Shown here piece by piece: positions 14,648 through 51,910 of a stretch of DNA of 64,000 nt. The notes below the pieces were generated by a model. That model was not told where the DNA came from. It searched no databases and was given only the letters and a program-made list of their open reading frames with translations. This DNA is from Symbiodinium sp. CCMP2592 (lineage: Eukaryota; Sar; Dinophyceae; Suessiales; Symbiodiniaceae). How positions within the stretch are numbered: position 1 is the stretch's first letter; the number at the start of each line of letters is the position of its first letter. The position numbers and the translations under genes are program-made. The stretch lies in contig CAJNDT010005832.1 of assembly GCA_905221615.1 (NCBI GenBank), positions 434,001-498,000 of the forward strand, given 5' to 3'.

Positions 14648-17600
14648 ATGTTCAACGGTTTCCACGCGTTGGGAATGTATATTGAACTTGAGTTGCGGGC
14701 CCGAGCATGCGTGGTGATTCATGGATCTTCGTTTTGGTCAAGAATGTACAGCCAGGCGAAACATGCGTCGTCAGGCGTGCATACACTGTCAGTCGAAAAG
14801 GTGCCACCACCGGACAATCGGGTCAGGTTCAAATTGGGCCTAGCTATCTATGAGAAGCAGCTGTTCTGCGAGAAGATGGTATCCACGTGCTTTGTTGAGG
14901 CATCAAAAGTTCGCTCATGGGACGAGACAGTCAGAACCGACTTAGTCGCTCACCCGTCGCTTGTCGAGATTTGGGAGGACAAGAGTGAAGTCAAGACGAC
15001 CACCAAGATCTCGCAGACATGGTTTACGGGGGAACAGCAGCAACAGATCAGGTCGGGTGCCCAGGGTGAAACGGTCGCTGAGTCGTCCACAGTCACCTGG
15101 CAGGATTTTGACATCGCCATGACCGTTCCCGAAGCCTACTACGACAACAGGCACTACTGGTTCAGGATCGACACCTATGCGACCCCGAACACTGGTTATG
15201 TCAAAGGGAGAACGTTCTATTGCTCTGGATGTGAAGCAATGAAGTTGGCTGAGTGCTACGCACAAGCCTTCTTCAAGCCGACCGGAAACGGGTATCCTGG
15301 GCACTGCATTGGGTGCGCGCATACTTCAGCTTTGAAGATGCAGCATCAAATCAGCTCCTTCCATGACTTGATCGCGTCCCAGAAGTACACCTTGGCTTGC
15401 GCAAAGCACCTTTATGACCTGAGGCTTCAATTCGTGGATCCTCGTGTGGACATCAAGGAGTTCCTCAAAGTTTGTGCAGAAATGGTCTATGAAGACATCG
15501 GCAAGACGGTTTCTCACTACGGTGGTCTCCGAATCACAGCCAGTCAGGCCATCGAGTACGCGGCATGGGGAAAGGCCAAACAGTTGGCGTGGGACAGAGG
15601 GTACGCCTCCGAAGGCAAGACATGCTACATCTGCTACTACGATGCCGGGAACTGCGCTTATGCTGGTTTCATGAGGATGCTTTTGACTCCAGAAGAGCGC
15701 CAAGAATGCTACAGAGGGTCAGTCTTGCCCAAGGAAGAGCTCCTGGGTGACACAGTGGAGCTGGCGCTCGGGCTTCTTACCATTGCAATGAGACACCCAA
15801 GTCATTTTATGAATTGGGGTGGCCTTGAGGGAGCAAATGCGTGCGCGAGAGGAATCGAAAGGTCATTCTTCCGCTACGCGTCGGCCGAAGCCATCGAGCT
15901 GATCACGGTTGACTCCCCGCGCAAAAGGACACCGCCCCAGAAGAATGAAGCAGTCGCTGAGATCGTCAACAACATGTCCGCTGACCTCGTGATTGATTTC
16001 ACAGTGATCGTCGATGGTGATATCTACCCTGTAGAGATTGCGAGAACCGACGAGACACCGGCCGCTGACAACGTCACGGACGATCCAGGGTTCTCAGTTG
16101 CTCCACCAATACCTGCACAGGATGTGGATGTGGATGCGCAACCCGAAGAAGAGCAAGGTGCAGAAGGCCCTGATCCTAGGCATGCAATTCGTGAAGGATT
16201 TGTCACGCAGCTTCAGGACTATGTTGGCGTACTCGCTCAGGGCGAAATGTCAGTCGGAAGCGACCGCATCACGTTCTGTGTCGCTTGTGGCAGTGATCTA
16301 CACACTCTGTCCAATTGCACGGAAAATGCTGCAACCCGGGACCTGGTACTTCGAGGCGTCCAGATCATCAAAGAAAGTCTTCTTCGATATCCACGTCGAG
16401 TACCTACACAAGAGGCTGAGCCAATGGACGTTGACACCACAGATCATGTGAGTGTTGCATCCTCGGACCGACGACCCAAGGCCAAAGCCAGACCGCGACG
16501 CGGAGGCGAAGCCGTACGGGGTGATGTGGTCTTGATCCGTTATGAGAACAAACACAATCTCTGCACGGATGTGGAGAATCGTCGGGGCCTAAATGATGCT
16601 TGTGGCGTACCACTGCAGGAATCGGGACCAGAGAATAGCCAGCGAGTGGTGGACATCATTGAGCAGCTCTCGGACCATCGCGACCGACGCCTACCTCAAC
16701 GAGGAGACCGTCCTAGCTTTGCTTACGATGAAAACACTCATAGCTACACCAATCCAGGCTATGAATCCATCGGCGGCGGAAGGCCAATCCGGTGCGGGAT
16801 TCTCGACCTGATCCCAACCAAGGGTGCAAGCTTCATCAACAATCGGTGGGACATCGTGAACGAAGTTGTCCTTCGCAACATCACCCGTCAGCGCAGATTG
16901 AACGCGGATTGGGCGCTATCATGCATCCAGTCTGACTTGCGCCGCAGAATCGCCAGGCGCCCAGGCTCGGAATGGCTTGACAACAGGTGCCAGGTGGCAT
17001 TCAACAGTGTCATCAAATGTGATGAAGGAGGATGGGTGATGATCGAAGACTTGGTGAGGCATGAGCCACTATGGACCCACGAAAGCAGACGCATCACCGA
17101 AGGGGTCTCAAGGACCGATGATCAACAGAAGAAGAGAGTGTACAATGAAAGACTTCAGCTATTGTTCCAAGGGAACATGATTGCAGCCACGAAACGCAAC
17201 AAGGCCAAGATTCGGTTGCAGTTCCTGGGTGTGAGAGTGAAGGACCCCGGCACGGAAGTTCTCGGATCAGCAGGTTCGAACAGGTTGGTATCGGTTCAGG
17301 ACCAGATCACGGAGATCCAGAACAACGATCACTGCCGTCATGGCCAGAGGTACCTGAACATATGCAACGGCTGGGTGAAGCCATGGGCAGTTCGGGCTAC
17401 GAGTGGTCACTCTGCGCACTCAGATCCCCAGAACAACTTGCTTCAGTTGGACAAGAACAGGTTCGCAATATCTCCATCTATGACCCTCTTGCAACGTCTT
17501 GTAGGTGCGTTCCACGCTACGGCATGCCGCAACTTGGATTCCATTGTCACGCAAGGCATCATGCCTGGTTCGGAGGACCCCGACGGGGACTTCGCCCATA

Positions 17601-18586
17601 GGCGCCAATTCCGAGGCAACCAAGGTGGCAGACTCCACAGCTATTGGGGGGTGTTTGCGCCGTTCGATCACCGGAACGCAACGACCAAGATGCGAGTACA
17701 TGGACGAGACGCCAAGCACATGCCATTGGCGGTCCTTCATGTCCCGTCGCAGGACCTTGCACGAGAGGATGGACGTATCACAGACAGCGGCATCATGATC
17801 GTTGGTCGAACGATACCTTTCCATTTCGTCAAGGAGGTATGGTTTTGCGTCCCTGATCCCCGAGATACACACTCTTTCGCTCTGGTGCAAAAGATCTACG
17901 ATGAAAGGTTGGAGAAAGAGCTGGTGTTGGACTACAATGCATCACCGTTGCTTCCTGAGTTCGAGAGATACCGAACGCCAAGCAAGATCATGGAATTGCT
18001 TTGCGAGATGCCTCCTGGACCCCACGACACAAGCAAGGAGCAGATCATTCGTGACCTCACGACTGTCCTGGAGTCCCACAGGGAGAACACGGTTCGTCAT
18101 CACTACATGGACAAAGGAATCAAGTTTGTCATCAAGAATTGGCGACCCGAAGACCTACGCAGAGACGAGGATGGACGGAGAATGAGGGTATGCCCGGCAT
18201 GCTACAATATTGTTCCAGCATGTTTCTCCCGATGCACGTCTTGCTGGTCACAGTTCATTTCGAGCGGATATTACCAAGGTTCTCCACAACGGGAGACTCC
18301 TACGGAGATCCCCAGTGACTTCATTGCTCAGACAATGGAAGCCGCAGCAGCCGCAGTGCCTGAGGCGCCCGAAGAGGAGCAGGAAGCCATGGAGGTAGAA
18401 ACCGTTGCGGAACCTGAAGAAATCCCAGAACCGTCTGTCATCGCGGAAGACGATCCAGAACAGGAACCTGATGAAGAAATGGACATCGAGCCTGGAGAGG
18501 ACTTTGATGACGCAGTTCCAGAAGCATTCTTTGTTTGGGGGTTTTCCAAAAGGAAAGACCTAGGGGCCAGCGAAGTAGCGCGTTAA
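14648..18586 (+). CDS. ORF2 C-terminal part with zinc clusters and Tpt1/KptA-like domain (copy 1, truncated)
   Basis: The frame follows the repaired ORF2 frame. Cys clusters include FYCSGCEAMKLAEC...HCIGCAH (about 15220-15320), TCYICYYDAGNC (about 15628-15660), FCVACGSDLHTLSNC (about 16273-16320) and CPACYN...CTSCW (about 18190-18245). From about 16997 to 17865 the sequence follows Tpt1/KptA order: GGWVMIEDLV; R916-A-T-S-G-H-S (His codon 17408); FHATACRNLDSIVTQGIMPG; GGRLHSYW; and a final strand DSGIMIVGR. Known Tpt1 enzymes transfer an internal RNA 2'-phosphate to NAD+ using an Arg-His-Arg-Arg set. The motif spacing fits, but the last NG motif is altered, so activity is uncertain. An acidic Glu/Pro tail follows. 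The true protein is cut at 18526; the last 20 codons (after about 18527) come from unrelated inserted sequence. Confidence 0.78.
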   Translation: MFNGFHALGMYIELELRARACVVIHGSSFWSRMYSQAKHASSGVHTLSVEKVPPPDNRVRFKLGLAIYEKQLFCEKMVSTCFVEASKVRSWDETVRTDLVAHPSLVEIWEDKSEVKTTTKISQTWFTGEQQQQIRSGAQGETVAESSTVTWQDFDIAMTVPEAYYDNRHYWFRIDTYATPNTGYVKGRTFYCSGCEAMKLAECYAQAFFKPTGNGYPGHCIGCAHTSALKMQHQISSFHDLIASQKYTLACAKHLYDLRLQFVDPRVDIKEFLKVCAEMVYEDIGKTVSHYGGLRITASQAIEYAAWGKAKQLAWDRGYASEGKTCYICYYDAGNCAYAGFMRMLLTPEERQECYRGSVLPKEELLGDTVELALGLLTIAMRHPSHFMNWGGLEGANACARGIERSFFRYASAEAIELITVDSPRKRTPPQKNEAVAEIVNNMSADLVIDFTVIVDGDIYPVEIARTDETPAADNVTDDPGFSVAPPIPAQDVDVDAQPEEEQGAEGPDPRHAIREGFVTQLQDYVGVLAQGEMSVGSDRITFCVACGSDLHTLSNCTENAATRDLVLRGVQIIKESLLRYPRRVPTQEAEPMDVDTTDHVSVASSDRRPKAKARPRRGGEAVRGDVVLIRYENKHNLCTDVENRRGLNDACGVPLQESGPENSQRVVDIIEQLSDHRDRRLPQRGDRPSFAYDENTHSYTNPGYESIGGGRPIRCGILDLIPTKGASFINNRWDIVNEVVLRNITRQRRLNADWALSCIQSDLRRRIARRPGSEWLDNRCQVAFNSVIKCDEGGWVMIEDLVRHEPLWTHESRRITEGVSRTDDQQKKRVYNERLQLLFQGNMIAATKRNKAKIRLQFLGVRVKDPGTEVLGSAGSNRLVSVQDQITEIQNNDHCRHGQRYLNICNGWVKPWAVRATSGHSAHSDPQNNLLQLDKNRFAISPSMTLLQRLVGAFHATACRNLDSIVTQGIMPGSEDPDGDFAHRRQFRGNQGGRLHSYWGVFAPFDHRNATTKMRVHGRDAKHMPLAVLHVPSQDLAREDGRITDSGIMIVGRTIPFHFVKEVWFCVPDPRDTHSFALVQKIYDERLEKELVLDYNASPLLPEFERYRTPSKIMELLCEMPPGPHDTSKEQIIRDLTTVLESHRENTVRHHYMDKGIKFVIKNWRPEDLRRDEDGRRMRVCPACYNIVPACFSRCTSCWSQFISSGYYQGSPQRETPTEIPSDFIAQTMEAAAAAVPEAPEEEQEAMEVETVAEPEEIPEPSVIAEDDPEQEPDEEMDIEPGEDFDDAVPEAFFVWGFSKRKDLGASEVAR
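18527..18561 (+). repeat. 35-bp direct repeat, first copy, at the break in copy 1
   Basis: Begins TTCTTTGTTTGGGGG exactly where copy 1 stops matching copy 2 (after CCAGAAGCA). The same 35 bases recur at 19137-19171. Both encode FFVWGFSKRKD in one frame, which is a coincidence of the repeat. It may mark the end of an inserted element or a recombination point. Confidence 0.85.
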
Positions 18587-21781: not shown

Positions 21782-21820
21782 CTTCGCTGGAGCCTGAGAT
21801 CGGCCGGGGGCTATAGTTTA

Positions 21821-22229: not shown

Positions 22230-22329
22230 NNNNNNNNNNNNNNNNNNNNNNNNNNNNNNNNNNNNNNNNNNNNNNNNNNNNNNNNNNNNNNNNNNNNNNN
22301 NNNNNNNNNNNNNNNNNNNNNNNNNNNNN
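22230..22329. other. Assembly gap, exactly 100 N
   Basis: One hundred N bases, a conventional placeholder for a gap of unknown length. The left side is minisatellite, the right side starts in the middle of a copia protease. The real distance and even adjacency of the two sides are not shown by the sequence. Confidence 0.99.
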
Positions 22330-24116
22330 AGTTTCATTCGTACGAATCCCAGGAACGTCTCGAGTGGAAGAAGTTTCGTTCTACGACGGTGAGGATTCCA
22401 TCGTTGAGCGCGAACTCGATGCTGCACACAGCAAACGGATCATCAATCAAGGCTTATTCAAATGCATGGTTCAACCAGTCATCCTTAAGAAGAAGATCAA
22501 GTTTCTCATGGACACTTCTCATGGACAATGGGTGTGGTCATGACCTCATATCTCAGAAGAAGATCGAGAAGCACAGTCTCGAAACACTCGTGACTCCAGA
22601 GCCCATATCATTTCAGACAGCCAATGGAATCACCGATACCGATCTCGTGTCGAATTTCCAGACTGAGTCGTTCGATGAACCGATCAACGCTTATGTGTTG
22701 GACGACACGCCGTCGGTGCTTTCCATAGGCAAGAGATGTATGAACTTCAACTACGGGTTTGTGTGGCCTCCCGGAAGGGAACCATTCATGATCAACCCGC
22801 AGGGCAAGAGAATATCTCTGTTCGTGAACGGTGACATCCCGTACGGTCGTGCCGGGAGTTCCAAGTCATTGGTTCATGATGATCCGGAGGCCAAAGCGAT
22901 CACCGAAATCTTCAAGGGTGCGTTGACAGCGGGCAATGTTGACGTCAGCGTCGCAGCTGCCGCTGAAGCTGCACCGGGCGAGATTGAAGCAGAAGAAGAA
23001 GGTGATGATCATGAACGACCTCCTGATCCTGAACCCCAAGAACCTCCTATAGAAGAAGTACCAGAGTCCGAGGCCGGACGCCCTCCGGACGACGACGAAG
23101 GAAAAGGAGGGGGTGAAATTCCATTGGATGGTGACGATGAGGTGATCATTGATGTGGAAGGCGACGGTGCACCGAGCCGCAAGGCCAGAGTCGGAACACT
23201 GAAAGCCGAAGCGAAGACATTGGCACATCTGTGTACCCATCGCTACCGCAATCCATATTGCGAACCGTGCATACGCGCGAAGATGAAGCACTTACGAACA
23301 CAACGAGGTGCATTTCAACGTGTGATCAAACACTGGGGAGATCTTGTGACGTTCGACTTCCTTGATATGCGCAAGGCCGCCGAAGCAGGCATTGGACTCG
23401 ATGACGGGGCACGTGAAGTTCTAGTCATCAGGGACATCGCCACCAAAATGATTGCAGCGATTCCCACGGCTTCAAGGAGCACTGACGAGGTCGTCATGGC
23501 CATCAGACGCCTTATGGGAAGGCGCAAGATTCATATGGCGTACAGTGATGAAGCACCAGAGTTCGATTCAGCTATGGCACAGTTGAAGATCGTGATTGAT
23601 CATTCCCTTCCAGGGAAACCCAGTAACAATTCACTCGCTGAACGATCAAATCAAGAAGTGATCAACACAGTCGCAGCATCCATGCTACACGCCGGATTGC
23701 CCGCTCAATACTGGTCCTTTGCGCTAAATTGCGTGATGCAGAACCTCAACATTGAAGACGTGGAGGGCGATGGTGATTCAGCATGGAAGCGAATGACTGG
23801 AAAGGACTTCGAGGGAAAAGCCATACCCTTTGGTGCCAAAGTCTTCTTCAAGCCGACGGATACAAGGCCGAAGACATATGGCAACAAATTCGACCCAAAG
23901 GGGATTCCAGGCATTTTTGCCGGATACATCATCACTGCTGGTCAAGGATGGTCCAAGAAGTATCGCGTTTGGGATATGAAGGAATGTGCCAACGCGAACT
24001 TGTCGATGGACGCATCTGTTCCCAGGAAGTTGATGAGACCGTACGAGACAGAAGTTATCTACTTCCCAGAGGAGATAACGTTTCCCCTGAAAGCCGAGTA
24101 CGAGAGGATGAACTAA
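22330..24116 (+). pseudogene. Copia protease-integrase fragment (copy 2), disrupted
   Basis: Matches copy 1 from 4748 onward. At 22503-22532 a 13-bp duplication of the protease active-site region inserts a second LMD and shifts the frame; the second motif reads MDNGCG instead of MDTGCG, so the retropepsin is dead twice over. The main open frame runs 22389-24116. It retains the HHCC zinc site (now YCEPC) and the integrase D, D and E motifs. It ends at a nonsense change at 24114 (TCA in copy 1, TAA here). Other substitutions are mostly silent or conservative. Confidence 0.88.
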
Positions 24117-24958
24117 ACCATTGAGGGACTCAGGGACAACGTTGACCTCGCTGGCAAGGAGATAAAAGACGTCGATGACGGTGGTGACGGTCCGCCCGGA
24201 GGAGATGGTGGCGACGGTGATGACGATGATCCAAGTGGACTTCTTCCTCCACCGGATCCCGGAGAAGATCCTGACTTACAGGACATAGATCCATCTGACA
24301 TTGAGACGGAGCCGCTCCGGCGAAGTCTTCAAGTCAGCAGAACATGAAGCTATTGATGCCATAGGAGACAAAAGACTCGAAGAACTAGACGAAGAGCTGG
24401 GTCTACGTGCAGCACCGCCTCCTTCTGAACCAAAGGTCACTGGGAAAGATCGACGATCGCCCCGCGAAGTCGGTCCAACCGGTAGACTCATCCCCGAAGG
24501 AGACATCGAAGAACCTGGAGAGATTATCAAGATCTTGAAAGAAAAGAAGTTGGCTCCCGAGGAGATTGAACATTGGAGTACGGGGAAGAAAGGAGACGGC
24601 ATTGTATATCTTACCGATGACGGTGAAGCTTGCAAGATCGACAAAAGGGGAGTTCCGTACAAGATCCGAAGTGATGGTCGACGAACTCTTCCTACACGGC
24701 GACCTATCCAATTCTTATTCTCCGGAAGCATGGAAGAAGATGAGCGAAGCGGAGAAGAAGGCAGCATACAAGAAAGAAAAGCGAGACAAAGCTCGAGTTG
24801 CCAAGAAAGACCGGAAGAAGGCTGTGATAGGAAAGAAGATAGTCACCAAGACTTTGGACAACATGATCTTTCCCAAGATTGTTCCCGTGTGAAGAAATTG
24901 ATCTGCAACTCAACGTGTCCGTTGAGACGACGATGGTTGGTCATGGGCACAGTCCTAT
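24117..24958 (+). pseudogene. Pol connector between integrase and RT (copy 2), multiply frameshifted
   Basis: Aligned by eye with copy 1, this stretch has an extra C near 24317 (GCTCCGGCG), an extra A near 24711, an extra T near 24885 and a missing T near 24925. Translation therefore hops between all three frames (open pieces 24301-24711 and 24566-24892). The equivalent of the copy 1 A-rich tract is absent; a short Lys/Arg-rich coding stretch is there instead, giving the likely ancestral state. Confidence 0.82.
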
Positions 24959-29290: not shown

Positions 29291-29366
29291 GGTCTGACCA
29301 GACGGATCGGGGAAGGGTGCCTCTTACGGAGAACCCGGAACCGTGAAGTCGAGTAGGGTGTAGGGA

Positions 29367-29386
29367 CTTCCCTCCTACGGAGGAAG
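29367..29386 (+). promoter_or_regulatory. Hairpin upstream of ORF2 (copy 2)
   Basis: Same stem-loop as at 12104-12123, ending 16 bases before the ORF2 ATG at 29403. The whole 112-bp ORF1-ORF2 spacer is nearly identical in both copies (one G/A difference near 29313). Confidence 0.55.
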
Positions 29387-29402
29387 GACCGAAACCCGAG
29401 CC

Positions 29403-34076: not shown

Positions 34077-34120
34077 TCCCAACCAAGGGTGCAAGCTTCA
34101 TCAACAATCGGTGGGACATC

Positions 34121-37156: not shown

Positions 37157-37588
37157 TGCGAACGGACTGCGATGCCTTGTCATGTTCTAAGGTGTCACTA
37201 TAAGAGCTGTGAGCAAGACCGTGTAAAGTGCAAGAGAAGGGGGCACGCTACGCGTCCCTCGACTCTAGGGGGCATGCTACGCATCCCTCATCTTTACCTT
37301 TCTATGTGACCGCCAACGCAACGTTTGGCTCAAGTCAATGCCCATAGCTAAGTGCTATATGTGTCTTCTATCCTGAGCAATCAGAGCTATCCCGTTGCAC
37401 AGACGAACCGCCGCCGGCAGTGAGTGCAAAAGGAACGGCCGCCGGTTCTGCCTGCATAGGATTGCACGTGTGGGAGTAAGAGGGAGAGACAGGGTCCAGT
37501 CTGTGGAGAGTGCTAGCCAGCCACACCTATATTCATTACAGCTCTGGTGGGGAGAGCAGCAACCAAGTCGAGATCAATCCCCCACGCA
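37157..37588 (+). repeat. 3' LTR (432 bp)
   Basis: Same TG...CA ends as the 5' LTR, one base longer. Differences I see: an extra G, C to T and G to A in the second internal repeat, two changes in CTTTACC, T to G near 37397, A to G in GTGGGAG and C to T in CCTATATTC. Followed directly by CTATA and the ATATCT microsatellite. Confidence 0.93.
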
Positions 37589-38190
37589 CTATACATCTAA
37601 ACATCTATACATCTATATATCTATACATCTATATATCTATATTTCTATATATCTATATATCTATACATCTATATATCTATATATCTATATATCTATATAT
37701 CTATATATCTATATATCTATATACCTATATATCTATATATCTATATATCTATATACCTATATATCTATATATCTATATATCTATATATCTATATATCTAT
37801 ATATCCATATATCTATACATCTTTATATCTTTGTATCTATATATCTATATATCCATACATCTATACATCTATATATCTATATATCTATTTATCTATATAT
37901 CTATATATCTACATATCTATATATCTATATATCTATATACCCATATATCTATAGATCTATAGATCTATAGATCTATATATCTATCTATACATCTTTATAT
38001 CTATATATCTATATATACATCTATATATCTTTACATCTATACATCTGCATTTTCATATACCTATATACTTATGTATCTTTTTTTTATATGTCTACCTTCA
38101 TGCATTTATACCTATTTCTCTATCTATCTTTCTATGTATATATATAGATATGTCATCATAGTACATATATGTATATATATATAGACACAT
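37589..38190. repeat. (ATATCT)n microsatellite, right flank
   Basis: Hexamer array like 1-201 but longer and more degenerate, with ATACAT, ATAGAT and TTTATAT variants, grading into TA/TATG-rich sequence near 38090-38190. The ORFs rich in Tyr-Ile-Ser here are repeat translations. Confidence 0.95.
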
Positions 38191-42806: not shown

Positions 42807-42836
<30 letters not shown>

Positions 42837-43347: not shown

Positions 43348-43534
43348 TAAGCCTCTCGGCTCAGGAAAGGTCAGGCTAGTACAGTGCCTTTTTCCTTTCT
43401 TGCCATGGCATGTGTCAGCGCCTGAGCAGTCCCGGTCCCAAGTCCGGGAGGGAGCATTTAGATTTACAGCTTTCTATCAGCTCCCAGAGGTGAGGGTTGT
43501 CAGTTTTGCGCAGCCGACAGGAGCCGTGCTCAAC

Positions 43535-43711
43535 ATGAGCACTGCGAAACAGCCTAGTGTCTCGACCAAGCATCTCCCGCCCGTTCCTAAAGGGAAAGGT
43601 AAGCGCTCTTATCAAAGGGCGGCACGCAAAGCTCTGATTGAAGGTAGTGCGGTTTACAAAGGGAGGGAGGATGTCGTCATCAGAGCTGGGAGTTACTCCG
43701 GCATTAGATAA
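43535..43711 (+). CDS. LINE copy A leader: short basic N-terminus
   Basis: ATG at 43535 (MSTAKQPSVSTKH) is conserved in copy B at 52995 (MSTAKLPSVSTKY), which supports it as the real start. The peptide is Lys/Arg-rich (PKGKGKRSYQRAARKA), suited to nucleic-acid binding. The frame drifts off after about 43660; the endonuclease continues in a different frame, so a frameshift lies near 43650-43700. Confidence 0.6.
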   Translation: MSTAKQPSVSTKHLPPVPKGKGKRSYQRAARKALIEGSAVYKGREDVVIRAGSYSGIR

Positions 43712-44600
43712 GACCCCAAACCCAAGTAGAAGGGCTAAGCCCTCGAAGTTCTTTGAGGATACGAATGTCAGCTATCTCTCCTGGAATGCAAGCTCTCTCA
43801 CTACAGCAGTGTGGGAAGAGTTACTCTCCGTTCTGAAAAGCAGAGCATTTCAGGAGGTTAAGCTGGTTGCTATCCAAGAAACTCACTGGAGAGGCTCCTG
43901 GCAATTTAGCAAGGAGGGGTGGCACGTGATCAGCTCCGGCACCTCCGGAGAGAAGGGTGCTGGAGTCCTGGTAATGGTGCACTCAACCCTGTGTAAGTCA
44001 CAAGATCTTCGCTTCAATGAAGTTGTCCCTGGTCGAGTTCTTCAAGTCCGTGTGCCTAGCAATGGCATTTCAATAGCTGTCTTCAGTTGCTACCAGTATG
44101 TCTGGCGCTCCAAGGAGACAGTTACTCAGAATAAGCAGTCTCGACAGCAGACCCTCCATGCCCTCAGCAAGTCCATTCGAGTGGTCCCAAATAGAAATAC
44201 TCTTCTAGTGCTCGGAGATTATAATGCCTCTCTCAAAACAGACAACAGGCATGTGGGACCATGCACGATTCAGGCCTGCCGTCTTGGACACCGAGGGTCC
44301 AAGGATCTACAGTCTCTCTTGACAGAACATCAGCTAGTCGCAACCAACACCTGGGGAGTTCACAGACCTGCCACCCATGTTCAGGGCAACTCGGTGTCAC
44401 AGATTGACTTTTCCCTTGTTCGCATATCCCAGTCCCAAGGCCCAGCCCGGTTCAGCCGGCCACTACGGGCTTTTCCAGTAGCAACATGGCGGGAGGGTAG
44501 TAAGCATTTCCCTCTACTAGGCACCATCCGACATAGCAGGAGATGCTCCGCAACAGCCTCTACACTCTACACCTTACGATCAGCAAGCTATGGAAGATAG
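43638..44600 (+). CDS. LINE copy A endonuclease (APE/EEP type)
   Basis: Shows the exonuclease-endonuclease-phosphatase motifs of LINE target-nicking enzymes in order: N in LSWNASS (about 43777), E in AIQETHW (about 43875), GDYNAS (about 44215), ATHVQGNSVSQIDF (about 44373-44410), and SKHFPL where SDHFPL is usual (about 44500). The Lys in place of Asp also occurs in copy B when read in the appropriate frame (SKHFALL), so it is a family feature rather than decay. About 250 residues of domain, normal length. Acts in the nucleus to nick target DNA for reverse transcription. The frame closes at 44598 shortly after the domain; the linker to RT is one frame on. Confidence 0.85.
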   Translation: MKVVRFTKGGRMSSSELGVTPALDKTPNPSRRAKPSKFFEDTNVSYLSWNASSLTTAVWEELLSVLKSRAFQEVKLVAIQETHWRGSWQFSKEGWHVISSGTSGEKGAGVLVMVHSTLCKSQDLRFNEVVPGRVLQVRVPSNGISIAVFSCYQYVWRSKETVTQNKQSRQQTLHALSKSIRVVPNRNTLLVLGDYNASLKTDNRHVGPCTIQACRLGHRGSKDLQSLLTEHQLVATNTWGVHRPATHVQGNSVSQIDFSLVRISQSQGPARFSRPLRAFPVATWREGSKHFPLLGTIRHSRRCSATASTLYTLRSASYGR

Positions 44601-44997
44601 CTATAGGCACCAAGCTCCGCAAGTCAACGAGTTCTCCAAGGAGGTAGATTCACTTCTTCAGGACCAGCCTCAGACCTGGAGCTCTCTCTATCAAGCGATG
44701 AACTCGGCTCTTCAGGTCCACTTCCCCAAGCGAAGGGTGGTGGGAGCGAAAGCAGAGACCAACATCTGGGAGGAGCGCTCTGCTTTGCGCTCCCTTCCGT
44801 TGGCATTGCGGGTAATAGCTGAGTTCCTGCCGACACTCCAAACTCGCATAGTGTTTCGATGCTGGAGCTCTATGTCGAAACAGAGCTCACAAGCCCGAAG
44901 CGCGAAGCGTCTCAAGAAGGAACGTCGACAGCAGGAAATCGATGAACAGTTCCAGCAAGCAGAGTTTAAGTCCAAGCAGGATGGAATCCAGACATAG
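44590..44997 (+). CDS. LINE copy A endonuclease-RT linker
   Basis: Begins MEDSYRHQAPQ and matches copy B 53547-54059 (MEDSYRQCFPA), with conserved FPKR, RSLPL, RIVFRCW and KKLKKERRQQEID-type motifs. It is helical and basic. It ends at 44995 because the sequence switches to an inverted segment; copy B continues for another ~40 codons (YKVIQRFRSGKP) that lie inverted in copy A. Confidence 0.72.
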   Translation: MEDSYRHQAPQVNEFSKEVDSLLQDQPQTWSSLYQAMNSALQVHFPKRRVVGAKAETNIWEERSALRSLPLALRVIAEFLPTLQTRIVFRCWSSMSKQSSQARSAKRLKKERRQQEIDEQFQQAEFKSKQDGIQT

Positions 44998-45495
44998 CTT
45001 GTTGGAGTGTTGCCTTGAGTCGCTTCCTCACCAACCCTGCTAGTACCTTGCCCTCCGGGGCTATCACCCCTATGGGTCGAAGGGAGGCGGGTTTGTCCGG
45101 CTTCTTGGGAGGCTTTGGAAGCCATGAGATCTGCGAGGAGGTTACACCCTCCGAGAGCGAGCCTGCAGAGACCTCTCGGTTGAGAGTGTCCGAGATGAGC
45201 TGGATTGCTTGGGGACCTAAGGAACGCCAGGCGACTACTGGAGGGCTATCTCTCGGAACTGCTTTGCCTAACTTGATGGTGCCGAGCTGTTCCTTAACCT
45301 CGTGCACTGTGATGTTTAGGCTTCCTTGGACGCCGGCTAACGGATAGTCTGCCCCAGCTCCGAAGAGATCTCGAGAGTACTCCTCGAGTTGCTTTCTTTC
45401 CTCGGAGGCGGTCAGAAAGCGTCCCTCCGAATCCCTGAGCTAAACTTTATCTTGTGGCCTCCCTGATCTAAATCGCTTGATGACCTTATAAAGGG
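44985..45495 (-). pseudogene. Inverted segment carrying the RT finger region (LINE copy A)
   Basis: The minus strand here encodes the RT N-terminal part, including ISWLPKPPKKPD, LRPIGVIAPEGK and LVRKRLKATLQ, plus the upstream linker in reversed position. In copy B the same sequence is on the plus strand (about 53950-54290). Both edges join plus-strand sequence homologous to copy B: left of about 44985 is ...KSKQDG, right of about 45496 is QFGFVPGR. It is therefore an in-place inversion of about 510 bp that destroys the RT. Confidence 0.85.
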
Positions 45496-45981
45496 AATGA
45501 CGTCTCCCAGTTTGGCTTTGTTCCAGGAAGGGGCACCGAAGACGCGATCTGCAAAGCGCTAGCACATGTAGACCAGGCAAGATTCAGACAAGCTAATGCC
45601 ACCAGGGCGGCAGGCAAGGGGCAACAAGGCCTCAAACTCCATGGCAGCCTCACCTTGAGCGTTGACATGAGCAAAGCCTTTGACACTGTGGGCAGGCTCC
45701 GATTGAGGGAGGCCCTGGAAGCTGAACAGGCTGATCCCCTACTAGTTGAGGTCGTCGGTCACCTCCACATCAAGGCCTTGCACTGGATGACAGCAAACGA
45801 CCAGAGTTTCGAGATAGCCACTCGAAGGGGCATTAAGCAAGGCTGTAAGCTCGCCCCCTCCCTCTTCGCCTTCGCCTCTGGACTCCTCTTTAGGAAGCTA
45901 GCAGGACACATCAGCCCGGAAGAGCTAGTCAAGCTCCTAACAATGTATGCTGATGACAGTCTGATCCAGTCACATTTTTGA
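45496..45981 (+). CDS. LINE copy A reverse transcriptase palm
   Basis: Open frame after the inverted segment: FGFVPGRGTEDAI (about 45511), SVDMSKAFD (motif A, about 45658), RRGIKQGCKLAPSLF (motif B, about 45823), MYADDS (motif C, catalytic YADD at 45946-45957). Typical of LINE RTs. A small insertion (CACATTTTTGACT against CCCATTCTGACT in copy B) closes the frame at 45979. Confidence 0.85.
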   Translation, partial: NDVSQFGFVPGRGTEDAICKALAHVDQARFRQANATRAAGKGQQGLKLHGSLTLSVDMSKAFDTVGRLRLREALEAEQADPLLVEVVGHLHIKALHWMTANDQSFEIATRRGIKQGCKLAPSLFAFASGLLFRKLAGHISPEELVKLLTMYADDSLIQSHF

Positions 45982-45997
45982 CTCCGAGGCTGGACTC

Positions 45998-46225
45998 ATG
46001 ACGGCGTTGAGCCACTGCGACCTGTTACTGGATCAACTGGTGGAGCTAGGCTTTAAGGTTAATCCTTCCAAGTCCCCTATTTTGCCCCAGCTGCAAGGGG
46101 GCTCTGCCCCGACCATCAGGAAGAAGCTCTTTCGCACGGTTGAGGGTGTCAAGTACATCGAGCTCCCTTCAGGAAGGTTGATCTGTCTTCGGTACCAGGT
46201 TCCGTACCTAGGGGTAATTCTCTAA
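45998..46225 (+). CDS. LINE copy A RT motifs D/E, frameshifted continuation
   Basis: Contains CDLLLDQLVELGFKVNPSKS and YQVPYLGVIL, the post-YADD RT motifs, matching copy B (54770-54980). It ends at TAA where a short duplication (ATTCTC ATTCTC near 46215-46230) disturbs the frame; the next piece starts at 46249. Confidence 0.75.
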   Translation: MTALSHCDLLLDQLVELGFKVNPSKSPILPQLQGGSAPTIRKKLFRTVEGVKYIELPSGRLICLRYQVPYLGVIL

Positions 46226-46248
46226 TTCTCTCCTATCATGATTATGAA

Positions 46249-47670
46249 ATGCGCACTCTCAGGCACCGCTTGTCAGCCAGCAAGCTGGCAATGTCAGAAG
46301 TTGCACATGCGGTTAGAAATCATCGGGTCCTTTGGGACAGACGTCGCCTGTCGATCTGGACTATCACGGCGTGGGCCTCAGCTCTGTACGCTCTGCACGT
46401 GGTGGGGCTTACCCAGCAAGGCCTCCAAAAGCTCCATTCTCACATGATGTATCAGCTCAGATTCGTCCTGCGGAGCTACTCCCAGGAGACGAAAGAATTT
46501 AGGATTCCTCATGTGAAGGAGCTGCAGAAGCGAATGATGCAGTTTCTGAAACGACAGCAACAATCAGATCCCCTTCTTCTCCCGCACTATAAGGTGAGAT
46601 CTGAAGCTGTCAGTCAGGCTTTTGCAAATCTCTCCACCGACTTCTCATCCTCCCAGGTAGAAGATAAACTCATCACCTGTCAGGAATGCGGAGTGTGTCT
46701 GTCTGGCACAGGGGCTCTGCGTCGTCACATGCACAAGGCACATCCAGAGTCGCAGCAGAGTCTAAAGGGGCCCAAGTTTGACCCTATTTTGCACTCGATG
46801 CCAGGGTCAGCAACTTGTACCGCCTGTCGCTCAACCTTTAGATCAGTGTTTTATCTTCGTCGTTATGTCGAAACGTCTACTTGTCCTAGGGTCGAGCTTC
46901 TACTTCGACAGCAAGAGGAGCTTCCCACAGAGGCTCAGACAAGGATAGCACTATCGGAGAGGCTGCAGTCAGAAGCCCAGAAAAATCTTGAAAGCGCAGC
47001 CAGGAGTCCAGAATTTCATGATTATCTCATGGAACGCCAGGTCTTGGTGGGCCAGAAAGGTGCCAAACAACATCTAAACAAACAACACCCTGAAGTAATG
47101 TCCAGACTAGAGAAGACGCTGCCCTCTCGACTCACTCAATTTAAGGTCTTCTTTCGCAAAGGAGACAGCTGCCGCTACTGCAAGCTTTGTGTAGATGCAC
47201 CTGGCAGACATGCGCAGCAATGTGTACCACTCTTGCAGGTACATGTTCTGCAGGAGGTCGTGCGTCTACAGGTTAGGAAGCAACCACGGGACTATGTTCT
47301 GACCAAGACCTCCTCGTCTACTCAAAAGCCTCCACCAGCTCCCAAGCTCCCAGGCTCCGAACTTCCTGTCTTCAAGCTCGAAGGCTTCCTTCTTCTTGCA
47401 AATACCCGGAATCACTGCTATGCGAACTCAGGCCTGCAATGCCCGCACTGGGTCTCAGATCCCGCCGAGGCACCGTTCCGAGAAGCATCAAGGGTGAGCC
47501 AGCTTGCGCGAATCACCCCTGAGCACTCAGTCTTCTCAGAGCTTACTTCGGGCTGGCATTTCGATGGCGGCCAACATGACTTAGCCGAGTTTTTGCAGCA
47601 GGTCTTTCGAAACTCCCCGAACCCAGATTCGGGCAGTGGGAAACCAGAGCCTCGGTGCCAGAGGGAGTAA
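46249..47670 (+). CDS. LINE copy A RT thumb, zinc fingers and N-terminal half of a USP deubiquitinase
   Basis: First ~80 residues are the RT thumb (MSEVAHAVRNH, QLRFVLRSYSQET). Then a C2H2 finger (CQECGVCLSGTGALRRHMHKAH, about residue 144), a second Cys pair (CTACRSTFRS) and a third cluster (CRYCKLCVDAPGRHAQQC). From about residue 375 it turns into a ubiquitin-specific protease: NTRNHC390-YANSGLQC carries the catalytic Cys (codon 47416-47418), and FDGGQHDLAEFLQQVF matches the USP QQDAxEFL box. USP (C19) enzymes remove ubiquitin from proteins. The His/Asp half is one frame on (47655-48179). A USP attached to a LINE ORF is unusual; its sharing with copy B shows it is part of the element, not a chance neighbour. 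Confidence 0.85.
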   Translation: MRTLRHRLSASKLAMSEVAHAVRNHRVLWDRRRLSIWTITAWASALYALHVVGLTQQGLQKLHSHMMYQLRFVLRSYSQETKEFRIPHVKELQKRMMQFLKRQQQSDPLLLPHYKVRSEAVSQAFANLSTDFSSSQVEDKLITCQECGVCLSGTGALRRHMHKAHPESQQSLKGPKFDPILHSMPGSATCTACRSTFRSVFYLRRYVETSTCPRVELLLRQQEELPTEAQTRIALSERLQSEAQKNLESAARSPEFHDYLMERQVLVGQKGAKQHLNKQHPEVMSRLEKTLPSRLTQFKVFFRKGDSCRYCKLCVDAPGRHAQQCVPLLQVHVLQEVVRLQVRKQPRDYVLTKTSSSTQKPPPAPKLPGSELPVFKLEGFLLLANTRNHCYANSGLQCPHWVSDPAEAPFREASRVSQLARITPEHSVFSELTSGWHFDGGQHDLAEFLQQVFRNSPNPDSGSGKPEPRCQRE

Positions 47671-48179
47671 TAGTAGACGAAGAAGGGGGACCCCCAATTC
47701 ACCTTGCCACCGCGACCAGGACGAGCATTCAGGACATGCTTCTTCACTGGTCTTCACAGGAGCCTGCCTGTGCCCTAATAGAAGACACACAGCAAGTCTG
47801 CCTAGTCCTACCTAGATTTACCGGAGCGGCTAAAGACTGCAGTCGCATTCAAATACCACAGAGTCTCAGTCTCCCGGTCTTCCTGGATCACACAGCTCAG
47901 GTTTCCTACATCGGATACTCTGTTCAGGCCATCAAAATTCACTTAGGCACCGAAACCACCAGTGGTCACTACAGAGCAGCAGTGAATAAGGATGGTGGCT
48001 GGTTTATAGGTGATGACTCCCGCCCTCCTACCTCCTGTACCTTAGATGATCCCCTGATTCAGGAAAATAGTTACGTTTTCTTCCTAACTCGCAGTCGCGT
48101 CTCTGAAGAGCTTCAGGGAGTAGCTCCACCCACGGCCGATGTCGCTGCAGGAACTACTTCAGCGAGCATCGATGGATGA
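47655..48179 (+). CDS. LINE copy A C-terminal half of the USP deubiquitinase
   Basis: True sequence begins around 47640 after a frameshift. YSVQAIKIHLGTETTSGH105-YRAAV is the USP His box (His codon 47967-47969), followed by GGWFIGDDS, which supplies the Asp of the triad, and SYVFFLTR, a typical closing strand. With Cys390 of the preceding frame, the catalytic triad is recognisable. The intervening catalytic core is short compared with cellular USPs (about 250 residues between Cys and His boxes). The stop TGA overlaps the next possible ATG (ATGA at 48176-48179). Confidence 0.8.
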   Translation: MPEGVIVDEEGGPPIHLATATRTSIQDMLLHWSSQEPACALIEDTQQVCLVLPRFTGAAKDCSRIQIPQSLSLPVFLDHTAQVSYIGYSVQAIKIHLGTETTSGHYRAAVNKDGGWFIGDDSRPPTSCTLDDPLIQENSYVFFLTRSRVSEELQGVAPPTADVAAGTTSASIDG

Positions 48180-48883
48180 AAGTTTTGCCCCGAAGCGAGG
48201 CGATGCCGGCCCCTCAGGAGGACTCCCCTGAAGCGTCAGCGAGGTGGAGCTCTACTCCCCAGTCACGTGGCAGAGGACAAAACCGAGGTGGTAAGAGTAG
48301 GGGACGAGGCAATGGAGGCAAAGGGAATGGAGCTGGCAAGAACCAGGCTGGGAATAGTGGCGGTCAACTACAGGGACAGGGCAATGTTTCGAAGGAGCTG
48401 ATGAATGCCATGGCTAGGCTGGTTCTTCGGCACGACGAACAAATCTCGGCCCTTGCCGCTGACGTGACCTTTGTGTCTTACGCTCGCACAGATGAACACT
48501 CGATCCTGCCACAGCTCTTTGAAGAAGGGCAAAGGATCAAAGGCACACCCACAGGGATGCCGCCGCGAGCAGCCCTGACTCTCAAGTTCCTCCGCGAGCT
48601 CAAGGACAGATTAGTCACAACCAGCAAGGATAAGGCCATCCAGGAGCGGCTTCAGGACGACGGTCTGATGACGCAGGATGGCGATTGGCCATTCTTTGAG
48701 TGGTCAGTGACAGACCAGAAACTTACCGAATCTCTAGAACTTCTCACGACCGCTCAGGTTGTCTCAGGCCTCGGGGATGCCATTGCCAGGATCTCATCCG
48801 ACCCGGAGCACGTGAAGCCGTTCAAAACATCACGGTCCAGTACGAGTTCAGATTCAGCTCTCTACCAGGGCATCCACTTCTGA
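48176..48883 (+). CDS. LINE copy A RGG-rich protein
   Basis: First ATG overlaps the preceding stop; the homologous start in copy B suggests the codon at 48203 (EAMPAPQ against EAMSPSG) as an alternative. It has an Arg/Gly/Gln-rich segment (SRGRGQNRGGKSRGRGNGG, about residues 30-70), a classic RNA-binding composition, then a conserved region: NAMARLVLRHDEQI, DVTFVSYARTDEH, ILPQLF, LKFLRELKDRL, EWPFFEW-type. Copy B keeps the same motifs at 57484-57800. Function unknown; a nucleoprotein role is plausible. The last ~30 codons lie beyond the conserved part. Confidence 0.72.
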   Translation: MKVLPRSEAMPAPQEDSPEASARWSSTPQSRGRGQNRGGKSRGRGNGGKGNGAGKNQAGNSGGQLQGQGNVSKELMNAMARLVLRHDEQISALAADVTFVSYARTDEHSILPQLFEEGQRIKGTPTGMPPRAALTLKFLRELKDRLVTTSKDKAIQERLQDDGLMTQDGDWPFFEWSVTDQKLTESLELLTTAQVVSGLGDAIARISSDPEHVKPFKTSRSSTSSDSALYQGIHF

Positions 48884-49465
48884 GTTGCTGGACACCCTGC
48901 AATCCCTCGTGGGCAATTCTGCCTTCTCACTCATCAATAGCGACTTTCAGCGACTAGGTACCCAGCCCTCGCCGCTAGTTCGTCAGATTCGTGACATGCT
49001 TTCGTGATCGACTCCCTAAGGATTAGGTCGCATATCGGACAAGCCCCACGAGAGGGCAGGTCTGGTACATCGTGCTCAGCAGCAAAAAGTTTTATGGCTG
49101 CAGAAGAGGAGCTACTCCCTGTCAGCACTCACCTGCGAGGAGTCGTTGGCTCCACATGGCAGTCAGCGAGGAGGCCCTCCCGCGTTGCAGCTTGCAACAT
49201 GCTTAAAAATAGACATGACTAGCTGCGACTGAAGCTGAGCTACCTATATAGCAATCTTGGCTCAGCTGCCTCTCGCTTTCAGTCCGCACATATCTCATCG
49301 CAGCATGATGTACGATCAGTCACCCGCTCATCTGGCACTGATGCTGCTTCCCACCATCGGGGCAGTCCTCTACTTGCACCAGAAGGCCCAAGGTTTGGAG
49401 ATACTCCCCTGGGCGGTTCTCAGTGAGGTGCGTGGTAGAGTCAAGGCTCTGGGATTCATCGCCAA
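48884..49465 (+). pseudogene. Decayed continuation of the RGG ORF (LINE copy A)
   Basis: Short pieces in alternating frames. The piece 49257-49469 (SMMYDQSPAHLALML, LEILPWAVLSEVRGRVKALG) matches copy B near 58340-58470 (MPYDRAS, LGMEVLPGDVMKDLEGRIKQL read in the right frame). Contains mini-palindromes at 49108 and 49397. No domain recognised. Confidence 0.55.
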
Positions 49466-49816
49466 GTGATCAAGCACCTTCAGGCCATAGTCGGCGTAGA
49501 CGAATGGGCTCAAATCCGTTTTCGCCGAAGGAAGGTGCTCTCCGAGATGGGTCTAGAGTTCCTGACAATAGCCCGTACGGGCGAGCTCTTGGCTCCGGAG
49601 AGCCTCGCACTTCACCGGTTTGACTTTGAAGCATGCGAGCGGGAAACGCACATCATTTCCTACGTGTGCAAGTACCTGCCCATTGACATCCGCACGACCT
49701 ATCTACAGAAAGTCGATGCACTACGGGCAACCTTCTTTGAGGAGGACCGGAAGCACAATCTCGCGACGGCTGTTTGGGATGTGTCCTACAACAGGCTTCT
49801 GGCAACGGCGGTCTGA
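49466..49816 (+). CDS. LINE copy A conserved helical domain, unknown
   Basis: Motifs EWAQIRFRRRKVL, ESLALHRFDFEACERET, VCKYL, DALRATFFEEDRKHNLA and YNRLL are conserved in copy B 58535-58898 (EWEQIRRRRRAIL, ESLAMHRMDLEQFERET, VCRYL, YNRLR), which shows it was under constraint. It is probably the C-terminal part of the RGG protein. No family recognised. Confidence 0.7.
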   Translation: MIKHLQAIVGVDEWAQIRFRRRKVLSEMGLEFLTIARTGELLAPESLALHRFDFEACERETHIISYVCKYLPIDIRTTYLQKVDALRATFFEEDRKHNLATAVWDVSYNRLLATAV

Positions 49817-50079
49817 AAGACCAAGATGATCTAGTGGAGTCACTCCCTAAGGTGGAACTTCCTCCCCAAGACAGGGGTGTACAGCTGGCGGAGTTTCTCC
49901 CCAGGGGTTTTTTAATCTCAGTGACATCAGAGCTGCAGCCTGCACAAAATAGGCCCATATCGTTGAGCCTTGCGATTTTTTCGCCTGCAAGAAACTACCT
50001 GATCGCACAGGTCTCCAGAATACACCCTGGAGGCCAGGAGCTCAGGCCTTGCACTTGAATATCAGCCAGAGGATAGTTC

Positions 50080-50523
50080 ATGCTCAACTCTCCGCAGGTC
50101 TTCTCTCAAAGTGAGTCCAGCATCATGTCTCGTCCTGAATCCACCCAAGATCAATCCTTCAGGGTGGAATATGACGAGTTTTGCAGAAACAGGGTCAGAG
50201 ACCAACTGCGAAATTTCTTGCGCCAGTGGAGGCGCTCAGCTCGCGCCCACGGCGAGAATTATCCAGCCCATAATGGCGCCTCCAAGGGATCAGGAGAGGC
50301 AGCAGAATCAGGTAAGGGAAAGGGTGGAGTTACTCCCCCTCCGCCTCCCTCTAAGAAGAGAAGCACTGGAGAGGGCGAGGGCGGAGACACTCCCCCTGTG
50401 GCTAAAGCAAGAGTGGAGATCCTCCCTCCAGTGACCCTTCCCATCAGCAAGCTCTTGAAGCTCACAATGAGGAGGCGGCCAAAGTTCTTCAAGCTGCAGG
50501 GTATACCCCATTTCCCAACCTGA
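50080..50523 (+). CDS. LINE copy A ORF, Pro/Lys-rich, unknown
   Basis: Starts MLNSPQVFSQSESS. An Arg-rich helical portion (RNRVRDQLRNFLRQWRRS) is followed by Pro/Gly/Lys-rich sequence containing three GGAG-NNN-CTCC palindromes (50326, 50383, 50415). Translation of these differs by frame (GVTPPP, GDTPPV, VEILPP). No homologue in copy B, which lacks this region. Confidence 0.5.
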   Translation: MLNSPQVFSQSESSIMSRPESTQDQSFRVEYDEFCRNRVRDQLRNFLRQWRRSARAHGENYPAHNGASKGSGEAAESGKGKGGVTPPPPPSKKRSTGEGEGGDTPPVAKARVEILPPVTLPISKLLKLTMRRRPKFFKLQGIPHFPT

Positions 50524-50598
50524 TCTCAGATTGTGCCGGCTCAATCACAGATCTGAATAACCACCGCATCACGGTGACGTTAACGAAGCAGCTTCGAG

Positions 50599-51189
50599 AT
50601 GGATTCACTCAGGCAGCAAAACCGACACCTGAGATTGCATCTGCTCTGCCCTGCTAGACTCTTGCCCTCGACGCCGGCCCTCGACGGCACCAGAAACTTT
50701 GAGGACAGACCGGGGGTGTATCTCCACAGGGCCGCGAACCGGCATCTCGCGGCCGGCTACAGCTCTCTGGTCAGGATAGGCCCTAGACACATCTTCGTTC
50801 GGCCGATGATTGAGGTGGAAGCCGCTACTTCTGGGTCGCAAAAACGCGGCAAGAAGACAAACCAACTTATCCACTCCTTTGACTCGGTGAAAATCCGAGC
50901 GGTGCTGCTACAAATCGCAACAAAGGACGCCCTCTCCTTAGGAGAGTACCTCCGCGAGTGGAGCGGTGCGCTCGAGATTCCACTCAAGCAGACTCGAGAC
51001 TCTTTTGCAGCTCTGGGATACGACATCACCATCGACACCCAGAACACTGACAGTCGAAAGGAAGGAGGAGTTCCTCCCCTTCGGAGCCTGCGAGCGGGTC
51101 AAAGGGTGGAGATCCTCCCCCGACAGCTAGCAGCCACGAACTTCAGCCCCAATCAACTTCTTCAACAACGCCAAGGGGGTCACCAATAG
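50599..51189 (+). CDS. LINE copy A ORF of unknown function upstream of Tpt1
   Basis: Contains RPMIEVEAATSGSQKRGKK and KIRAVLLQIATKDALSLGEYLREWSGALEI, the latter a well-formed helical stretch. It is in the same frame as 50080-50523 but separated by a stop at 50521. Two palindromes near its end (51067, 51108). No family recognised; may be an N-terminal part of the Tpt1-bearing protein. Confidence 0.5.
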   Translation: MDSLRQQNRHLRLHLLCPARLLPSTPALDGTRNFEDRPGVYLHRAANRHLAAGYSSLVRIGPRHIFVRPMIEVEAATSGSQKRGKKTNQLIHSFDSVKIRAVLLQIATKDALSLGEYLREWSGALEIPLKQTRDSFAALGYDITIDTQNTDSRKEGGVPPLRSLRAGQRVEILPRQLAATNFSPNQLLQQRQGGHQ

Positions 51190-51277
51190 TGGCTTGGGAA
51201 GGTCAGCCAGGAGAGCTCGGCGAGTACTGCAAGGACTCCACCAATCCAGACACGAAATTCTCCTTCGAGGTGTCAAA

Positions 51278-51910
51278 ATGTCAAAAGCATTGGCGGCGTG
51301 TCTGAGACATGGCCATCGGCCTCATATTTCCGTCTCCAGTGCTGGATGGGCTCGGCTGAAGGATGTTTTGTCATGGCCTCGCATTTACAGCCAGCGAGCG
51401 TCGGCAGGAGACATCATGGAAATAGTCCGCCACAACTCCAAAAGCAGGTATGAGCCGGGGGACAGCCGTGGTACGAAATACATCCGGGCAGTGCAGGGGC
51501 ATTCACGCTCCGACGTCGACTCTACTGAAGTCCTCGAGGCGATGCTCCCCGCAATGTTGTATCATGGTACGTATTAGTCTCTTTATGGCCCGATCCGGCA
51601 CCAAGGTCTACTGCCACAAAGCAAGATCTCCAAAGCCCGCGGTAAAGGCGGCCGCGGCAGAGAGGGACGCCAACACATCCATTTCGTCTCAGACAAAGAC
51701 TATGGGCGACCGGGCATCTCCGGCTTCAGAGAAAGCTCCTCCATGTTAGTTGCGGTCAATCCACTCAAGGCATCTCGAGAAGGGGTGACATTTTTCCGTA
51801 GCAAAAACGGCATGATCCTCACCCCCAATGAAGTGCCTCCTTCCGCCATTGAGTATTTCCAGAGCCTGAAATCCGGCACGAAATACGGAGGGGACAATAG
51901 GCCGCTCTGA
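51278..51910 (+). pseudogene. Tpt1/KptA RNA 2'-phosphotransferase in LINE copy A, one in-frame stop
   Basis: A canonical Tpt1/KptA of 210 codons from the ATG at 51278. Motifs: MSKALAACLR10-HG; SSAGWARLKDVL (the DGWV-type helix); DIMEIVRHNSKSRY; IRAVQGH75-S; LYH96-GT; GREGR131-QHIHF; and FFR174-SKNGMILT followed by PPSAIEYFQS. These include the Arg-His-Arg-Arg catalytic set that removes an internal RNA 2'-phosphate using NAD+ (known for the family, normally finishing tRNA splicing). The only lesion is TAG at 51575-51577 (codon 100), just after HGTY; the frame is otherwise open to TGA 51908. Length is normal. Located between LINE ORFs and the LINE 3' UTR, on the same strand; missing from copy B. 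Confidence 0.88.

Follow-up and report, generated by a model that had tools for sequence, protein, structure and literature searches.

Retroelements of dinoflagellates have been described as carriers of enzymes modifying nucleic acids. According to PMC5890265, SymbioLINE-Dnmt bears a cytosine methyltransferase in an open reading frame (ORF) upstream of the reverse transcriptase (RT) of a long interspersed nuclear element (LINE), this cargo is subjected to purifying selection (Ka/Ks < 0.2), SymbioDIRS-Dnmt3 represents a second element class, and Copia is without DNMT. Another likeness is provided by bdelloid rotifers, where one enzyme type of ORF3 is found across unrelated retroelement classes, with an exonuclease of the type involved in 3′-end processing of RNA and single-stranded DNA among these ORF3s (PMC5408684). 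Here, we analyzed 64,000 nucleotides of the genome of Symbiodinium sp. CCMP2592 (contig CAJNDT010005832.1, positions 434,001 to 498,000 of the forward strand; hereafter the window), in which a Ty1/copia element and a LINE both encode domains related to the RNA 2′-phosphotransferase Tpt1 (KptA, TRPT1; PF01885). The host group and the nature of cargo as a nucleic-acid modifying enzyme kept by purifying selection are shared with SymbioLINE-Dnmt and SymbioDIRS-Dnmt3, whereas the cargo itself is Tpt1, accompanied in one LINE family by a PARP-like ADP-ribosyltransferase (ART), instead of a methyltransferase, and in our case a copia family is also among the carriers. The rotifer enzymes (GDSL esterase, DEDDy exonuclease, and dUTPase) and their animal host are different as well (PMC5408684). 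Neither “Tpt1” nor “phosphotransferase” occurs in the main text of PMC5890265, and, among the papers listed for the open-licence PMC literature, titles, abstract starts, and term counts yielded none on Tpt1 or PARP domains in retrotransposons.

The catalytic tetrad Arg-His-Arg-Arg of Tpt1 is called invariant and essential (PMC6333775). Compared to cellular Tpt1, the versions borne by elements are embedded in multi-domain retroelement ORFs, and the copia version has diverged far and has more residues separating the RH motif from RATSGHS (amino acids 75 to 226 of the copia ORF versus 459 to 519 in a LINE homologue from locus L026). Taken together, the data presented below make it very probable that selected and potentially active Tpt1 is carried by more than one class of retroelements.

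Tpt1 domains in LINEs of the window and of the genome

The clearest example belongs to the first of two LINE copies arranged head to tail on the forward strand (43348–52810 and 52820–59494). Its domain at 51275–51907 matches PF01885 with 126.3 bits (E 1.8e-36) over positions 3–176 of the 177-position profile, is 75% identical to the homologue in L026, and retains the tetrad within LRH, RAVQGHS, and SGFR; judged by sequence, its assignment to Tpt1 is beyond doubt. The first-pass annotation, made from the letters of the window, had claimed Tpt1 in two element classes and named four motifs, all of which were recovered: RAVQGHS at 51485 and GRQHIH at 51665 in the LINE, RATSGHS at 17393 (also 34658) and GGRLHS at 17624 (also 34889) in the copia element. 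The claim itself holds for the LINE owing to the score given above and for copia owing to a sub-threshold match combined with the tetrad and with the weak profile and fold matches given below. Chance coincidence of motifs was considered and rejected in view of 126 bits in the LINE and the conserved tetrad in copia.

Searching the window's own assembly (1.098 Gb, 5383 contigs) with PF01885 gave 1550 first-look candidates (not confirmed copies), 150 scored, and at least 152 matches; all genome matches listed exceed the Pfam cut-off, which for this family is 26 bits. We read 28 loci from at least 152 matches, taking 10 kb for 20 of them and about 3.5 kb for the other eight. Each of the 20 longer loci, hand-picked from the score-ordered match list and thus not random, carries further LINE parts, 13 of them representing family A (that of the window), six family B, and one family C. 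The RT stretch is found inside nine of these loci (just 26 residues in L024), while the remaining 11, all from family A, contain both a ubiquitin carboxyl-terminal hydrolase (UCH) domain and a 304-aa ORF, with RT expected past the flank. Thus, as far as this selection goes, the earlier suggestion of a Tpt1–retroelement association is upheld, and the link between the two is strong in this genome. The eight shorter loci, too short for judging the element, comprise L003–L008 bearing family B Tpt1 domains with 97–99% identity, L001 with 78.5%, and L002 on contig C4512, which is the cellular Tpt1 gene, 98% identical to the jgi record P0041 and grouping with it among 18 rows. An R3H domain (PF01424) is present in seven of the 19 proteins P0041–P0059 that group with L002, P0041 not being among the seven; this group may be a dinoflagellate clade, with one of its 19 members named Polarella glacialis. 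The reading of these domains as cellular genes that happen to lie next to elements was rejected, the cellular gene being located elsewhere.

The family A protein-coding order is RT, a weak C2H2-like match, UCH (PF00443 9.3e-10 in the ORF at L026:1–1383), the 304-aa ORF, a 199-aa ORF, and an ORF of approximately 665 aa combining ART and Tpt1. The element ends sharply after the latter, often followed by TTG/CTG-rich sequence, and its 3′ terminus CCGCTGCGTGTGAATGAAATG is exact in nine of the 13 family A loci and has two mismatches in a tenth, while in L020, L021, and L024 it was not found within three mismatches. The RVT_1 match (1e-9) and this common 3′ end place family A among LINEs. The endonuclease of family B gave a tblastn match of 28% to L024:2997–3503, while Pfam detected no endonuclease in L024:2874–4612 or in the window frames. 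Tetrad residues are kept in 23/24, 23/24, 23/24, and 19/20 of the family A rows having letters at these places (29 rows in total) and are present by eye in families B and C. The protein as a whole was shown to combine a PARP-like fold with a Tpt1 fold. The former (about amino acids 107–344 of P0001) differs from the catalytic domains of PARP4, PARP10, and PARP16 in having Gln for Glu and in sharing a protein with Tpt1. The first two residues of the H-Y-E triad are present (His in 28/28 and Tyr in 27/28) and Gln stands in 28/28 at what, by eye, is the place of Glu, so the triad is incomplete and the domain is referred to as PARP-like ART only. A PDB sequence search with the family A ORF returned no PARP.

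Families B and C are arranged differently. In family B, Tpt1 and endonuclease are joined in a single ORF (L016) with RT downstream, and assignment to LINEs follows from PF03372 (1.3e-8 in L016) and RVT_1 (4e-15 in L023); in family C, the Tpt1 ORF is followed by endonuclease and then by RT (PF03372 1.2e-5 and RVT_1 1.3e-18, L013). Tpt1 thus precedes endonuclease-RT in families B and C, follows RT in family A, and stands after Pol in copia, so that the “near the 3′ end” position ascribed to the domain previously is valid for the window and fails for families B and C. In L023, the Tpt1 and endonuclease part is inverted relative to RT around 8112, an arrangement resembling that left by twin priming of LINEs.

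Within the window, LINE copy 1 starts with TAAGCCTCTCGG and is decayed, containing an in-frame TAG at 51575–51577 and several frame changes. Its RT (45502–46449; RVT_1 1e-9) is 70% identical by tblastn to that of L021, the UCH region (46816–48176) is 76% and 61% identical to the L026 ORF, and the N-terminal portion of its final large ORF (50110–51081) includes the PARP-like ART core at approximately 50626–51081. LINE copy 2 has the same 3′ end with one mismatch and comprises RT (54226–55176), a UCH-like region (55570–57230), and homologues of the two intermediate ORFs (57196–58089 and 58406–58892), while it gave no match to the ART-Tpt1 ORF at E 0.1 and none to PF01885. Since its RT is 54% identical to that of L021 versus 70% for copy 1, copy 2 is regarded as another subfamily; either the module was gained in one lineage or it was lost in the other. 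The two copies are separated only by CTGTTGCTG, and the same nine bases directly precede copy 1; both start with TAAGCCTCTCGGC, and copy 2 continues with TCAGG, loosely resembling the spliced leader. At L009:2–3961 (minus strand), a copia-type Pol ORF (RVT_2 2e-21, zinc knuckle) adjoins a family A LINE.

A Tpt1-like domain in the copia element

The Ty1/copia element is about 20 kb long and occurs in the window as two near-copies, 97.9% identical over the longest match, which may be two insertions, a duplication, or partly a product of assembly. From left to right, the window contains copia copy 1 (202–18526), other sequence with an assembly gap (22230–22329), copia copy 2 (22330–37588), an 8-bp satellite, and the two LINEs. 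The Tpt1-like domain of copy 2 (approximately 34199–35100, forward strand as all copia features; PF01885 25.2 bits, E 1.9e-5) possesses all four tetrad residues within DLRH, VRATSGHS, and TKMR, and that of copy 1 (approximately 16934–17835) gives 24.7 bits with E 2.8e-5. In an alignment of 18 rows, where the row of copy 1 is cut before the RH motif, the tetrad is conserved as R in 13/13, H in 13/13, R in 16/17, and R in 15/15 of the rows having letters; 15 of the 17 other sequences share 29–50% identity with the first row of the set. One relative, P0025 (named Symbiodinium microadriaticum), shares 98% identity with the copia ORF in its best alignment, which covers 30% of the ORF, and the host is accordingly probably near this species.

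A hidden Markov model (HMM) of cellular Tpt1, built here, detects both window copies, P0025, P0028, P0037, and P0038 in the copia set, six sequences out of 18, with E from 6e-5 to 8e-4. Profile comparison of copia and cellular Tpt1 by hhalign gave E 2.2e-4 with a probability of 45% from RATSGHS on, the RH motif being outside the aligned region, and in the comparison of copia with family A the match was confined to 39 columns of ART (E 3.6e-4, probability 37%). Foldseek applied to a predicted model of poor quality placed two Tpt1 structures on top as weak matches (E 0.032 and 0.038), followed by other ADP-ribosyltransferase folds, while the copia ORF, when searched against PDB sequences, returned no Tpt1. 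Opposed to this assignment are both PF01885 scores lying just under the cut-off, for which reason the domain is termed Tpt1-like, the 12 of 18 copia sequences missed by the cellular HMM, the low confidence of the fold model (predicted local distance difference test, 57.8), and the DLRRRI of copy 1 in place of the DLRHRI of copy 2, which substitutes Arg for the catalytic His. Each line of evidence is weak, and in combination they make a convincing case, on the sequence level, for the copia domain being a relative of Tpt1.

The element is assigned to Ty1/copia by its TG...CA long terminal repeats (LTRs) and an RVT_2 match in copy 2 (25619–25915; 34.4 bits versus the cut-off of 31.6, E 2.3e-8). 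The 5′ LTR at 202–632 and the 3′ LTR at 37157–37588, the latter preceded by CATGGGGGG, match at 98.1%. CTATA stands to the left of the 5′ LTR (197–201) and to the right of the 3′ LTR (37589–37593), although it is weak as a target-site duplication because it falls inside the 8-bp satellite. In copy 1, the N part of Gag-Pol (3094–7212; Pfam) includes a CCCH finger just above the cut-off, and aspartyl protease-like, integrase-like, and SH3-like stretches are below it; the C-terminal part of the post-Pol ORF occupies 14507–18586, with the frame broken near 14.5 kb and similarity to copy 2 stopping at 18526. In copy 2, the post-Pol ORF consists of a first part (29364–34076), for which no Pfam family was found at E ≤ 0.1, and a second part (33983–36904) containing the Tpt1-like domain; over the whole region 29364–36904 of about 2,500 codons, only the Tpt1-like part gave a Pfam match. 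The domain begins approximately 8.3 kb behind the RT match, so that the test proposed earlier, which counted Tpt1 domains within 5 kb of RT, would miss this copy.

Purifying selection and the number of captures

Ratios of non-synonymous to synonymous substitution rates (dN/dS) were calculated by our own Nei-Gojobori script; pairs inside one family have sequences in common and thus do not count as independent, and the pair of the window LINE copy and L025, read in a wrong frame, was excluded. For six pairs of family A, they range within 0.042–0.146 for ART, 0.039–0.221 for Tpt1, and 0.307–0.489 for the linker between them, for seven family B pairs Tpt1 gave 0.134–0.471 with six values not exceeding 0.21, and the copia copies gave 0.099 (5 non-synonymous and 14 synonymous changes, without the RH part). 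The domain ratios thus fall within 0.04–0.22 in 13 of 14 pairs, and the element-borne Tpt1 domain was shown to be under purifying selection. Passive cargo, i.e., a functionless retrogene caught by read-through and amplified together with the element, may be imagined given the many retrogenes formed in dinoflagellates (PMC12014239, PMC6050394), but is strongly disfavoured and appears very improbable, as dN/dS of ART and Tpt1 is far below unity with a higher value for the linker separating them, and the tetrad is kept in copia relatives at 29–50% protein identity.

Some observations do not fit easily with selected and active cargo. One family B pair reaches 0.471. The PARP-like domain scores 21.1 bits with PF00644 at a cut-off of 26.7 and is detected at E ≤ 0.01 in seven of 29 family A members, and Gln in place of the catalytic Glu of PARP1, as judged by eye, implies that it may lack activity. 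The match of family A to the Tpt1 fold has a large root-mean-square deviation (8.5), which probably arises from how the two lobes are placed relative to each other. The ART-Tpt1 module is also dispensable, as there is a subfamily, represented by LINE copy 2, without this ORF.

Whether the domain was acquired once or repeatedly was addressed by trees of 99 (quick), 84, and 46 rows. Copia, family B, the group of L002, and family A with homologues each form one well-supported group (98–100 in the careful trees), with no element family inside the L002 group. The copia and LINE family A domains thus fall into separate, fully supported groups, and both their origin from one recent insertion and their union in one recent clade, which had been named as a possible refutation, are contradicted by the trees. 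The claim of independent recruitment went further than the trees allow. In the 46-row set, forcing A and copia into a clade resulted in a tree 5.06 log units above the free search (approximately unbiased, AU, p 0.684), forcing A and B gave 4.99 log units (AU p 0.637), and A and C were joined, with no star, already in the free tree; the 99-row quick tree gave a warning that L013 (family C) and family A come together by long branches. Because the forced trees surpass the free search, the data leave room for one ancient capture that was later exchanged among element classes through recombination or template switching, for which ORF3 types shared by element classes of rotifers offer a precedent (PMC5408684) and which is compatible with any mechanism of action. 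We nevertheless regard it as unlikely, if a serious competitor: Tpt1 positions differ among A, B/C, and copia, the domains are highly diverged (about 30–35% identity of A to B and C), family B joined P0063 and P0084, both cellular, in the quick tree of 99 rows (96*), a grouping that the 46-row tree does not show, and in the 84-row tree a starred set of 11 unites nine copia rows with two cellular ones. It is the architecture of elements, not the domain tree, that argues for several captures.

Possible function of the cargo at RNA ends

Most of what is known about ADP-ribosylation of RNA ends by Tpt1 and some PARPs comes from in vitro work. In our reading, Tpt1/KptA is an accessory protein of copia (encoded by the post-Pol ORF), of LINE family A (the last large ORF, together with the PARP-like ART), and of families B and C (before endonuclease-RT), where it is kept by selection. 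Most likely it would use NAD+ on phosphorylated ends of element RNA or cDNA, either adding an ADP-ribose cap to 5′-phosphates or clearing 2′-phosphates, and such modification would guard the template or cDNA against nuclease attack or render it usable by RT. The conserved tetrad and the PARP-like partner are in line with a putative role in the chemistry of RNA 2′-phosphates or of NAD-linked ends. The explanation as a whole, uniting element-borne selected Tpt1 with NAD-dependent modification of RNA or cDNA ends, comes close to an even proposition, and the end-modification step, taken on its own, is put forward tentatively, as something short of even.

The classical activity of Tpt1 could be sufficient if the enzyme removed internal 2′-phosphates blocking reverse transcription, such as those that a yeast/plant-type RNA ligase might leave on RNA of the element or on a tRNA primer in the case of copia. 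Removal of the junction 2′-phosphate is the known role in fungi (PMC6333775), the tetrad is kept in family A and copia, and LTR elements and LINEs would benefit alike. This job, however, is already covered by the cell's own Tpt1 gene (L002), and the PARP-like partner of family A would be left unexplained, so we rate this alternative as rather improbable. More doubtful still is counter-defence, according to which ART, Tpt1, and ubiquitin hydrolase would act on host proteins or RNA and blunt silencing or stress pathways. It is favored by the UCH domain encoded in family A and by NAD/ADP-ribose chemistry at virus–host interfaces (PMC9503650), but those Tpt1 enzymes whose function is known act on phosphates of nucleic acids, and in the scanned ORFs of families B and C (L016, L023, and L013) neither UCH nor PARP was matched at E ≤ 0.05.

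Two stretches within the elements or at their ends match part of the dinoflagellate spliced leader, the sequence of which was taken from PMC2606063. Four of the six family B loci at 10 kb have a common 5′ end, AAG|CACCACGGCTCAGACC, not found in the two others, L017 and L028. In one of the four, L016, the 17 bases directly before this end (2180–2196) are AGCCATTTTGGCTCAAG, representing the 3′ part of the leader, as a trans-spliced template would leave, and we treat this match as a lead; CT repeats precede it. In the copia LTRs, TTTGGCTCAAG at 368–378 and 37324–37334 coincides with the last 11 bases of the leader and occurs nowhere else on either strand of the window; it may be a leader mimic or a relic. 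The two matches are leads, no more than suggestive of a link between Tpt1 cargo and trans-splicing. A broader notion would be that dinoflagellate retroelement classes converged on RNA-end ADP-ribosylation owing to trans-splicing: element RNAs would acquire or imitate the leader, and Tpt1, joined in family A by the PARP-like partner, would cap or repair the phosphate ends produced near this step and thereby protect them for reverse transcription. This seems to us improbable; if true, the processing of retroelement RNA would have a further, novel layer, and RNA ADP-ribosylation would be under strong selection in a natural setting.

These elements also bear upon gene annotation. Four of the 24 family A ORF relatives (P0012, P0013, P0014, and P0018) carry cellular names in public Symbiodinium records, e.g., tRNA 2′-phosphotransferase, TRPT1, or kptA, and all four look like retroelement ORFs by their homology to family A; labels of cellular-type Tpt1 may thus sit on products of retroelements. 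The data extend the known capture of nucleic-acid modifying enzymes by dinoflagellate retroelements. Selfish elements amplifying such enzymes, with the ART pair united in one protein of family A, offer a setting for testing the role of RNA-end modification, and this role is directly testable because the elements carry the Tpt1 gene and keep its active site. The finding suggests a benefit of RNA-end modification for the survival or spread of such elements.

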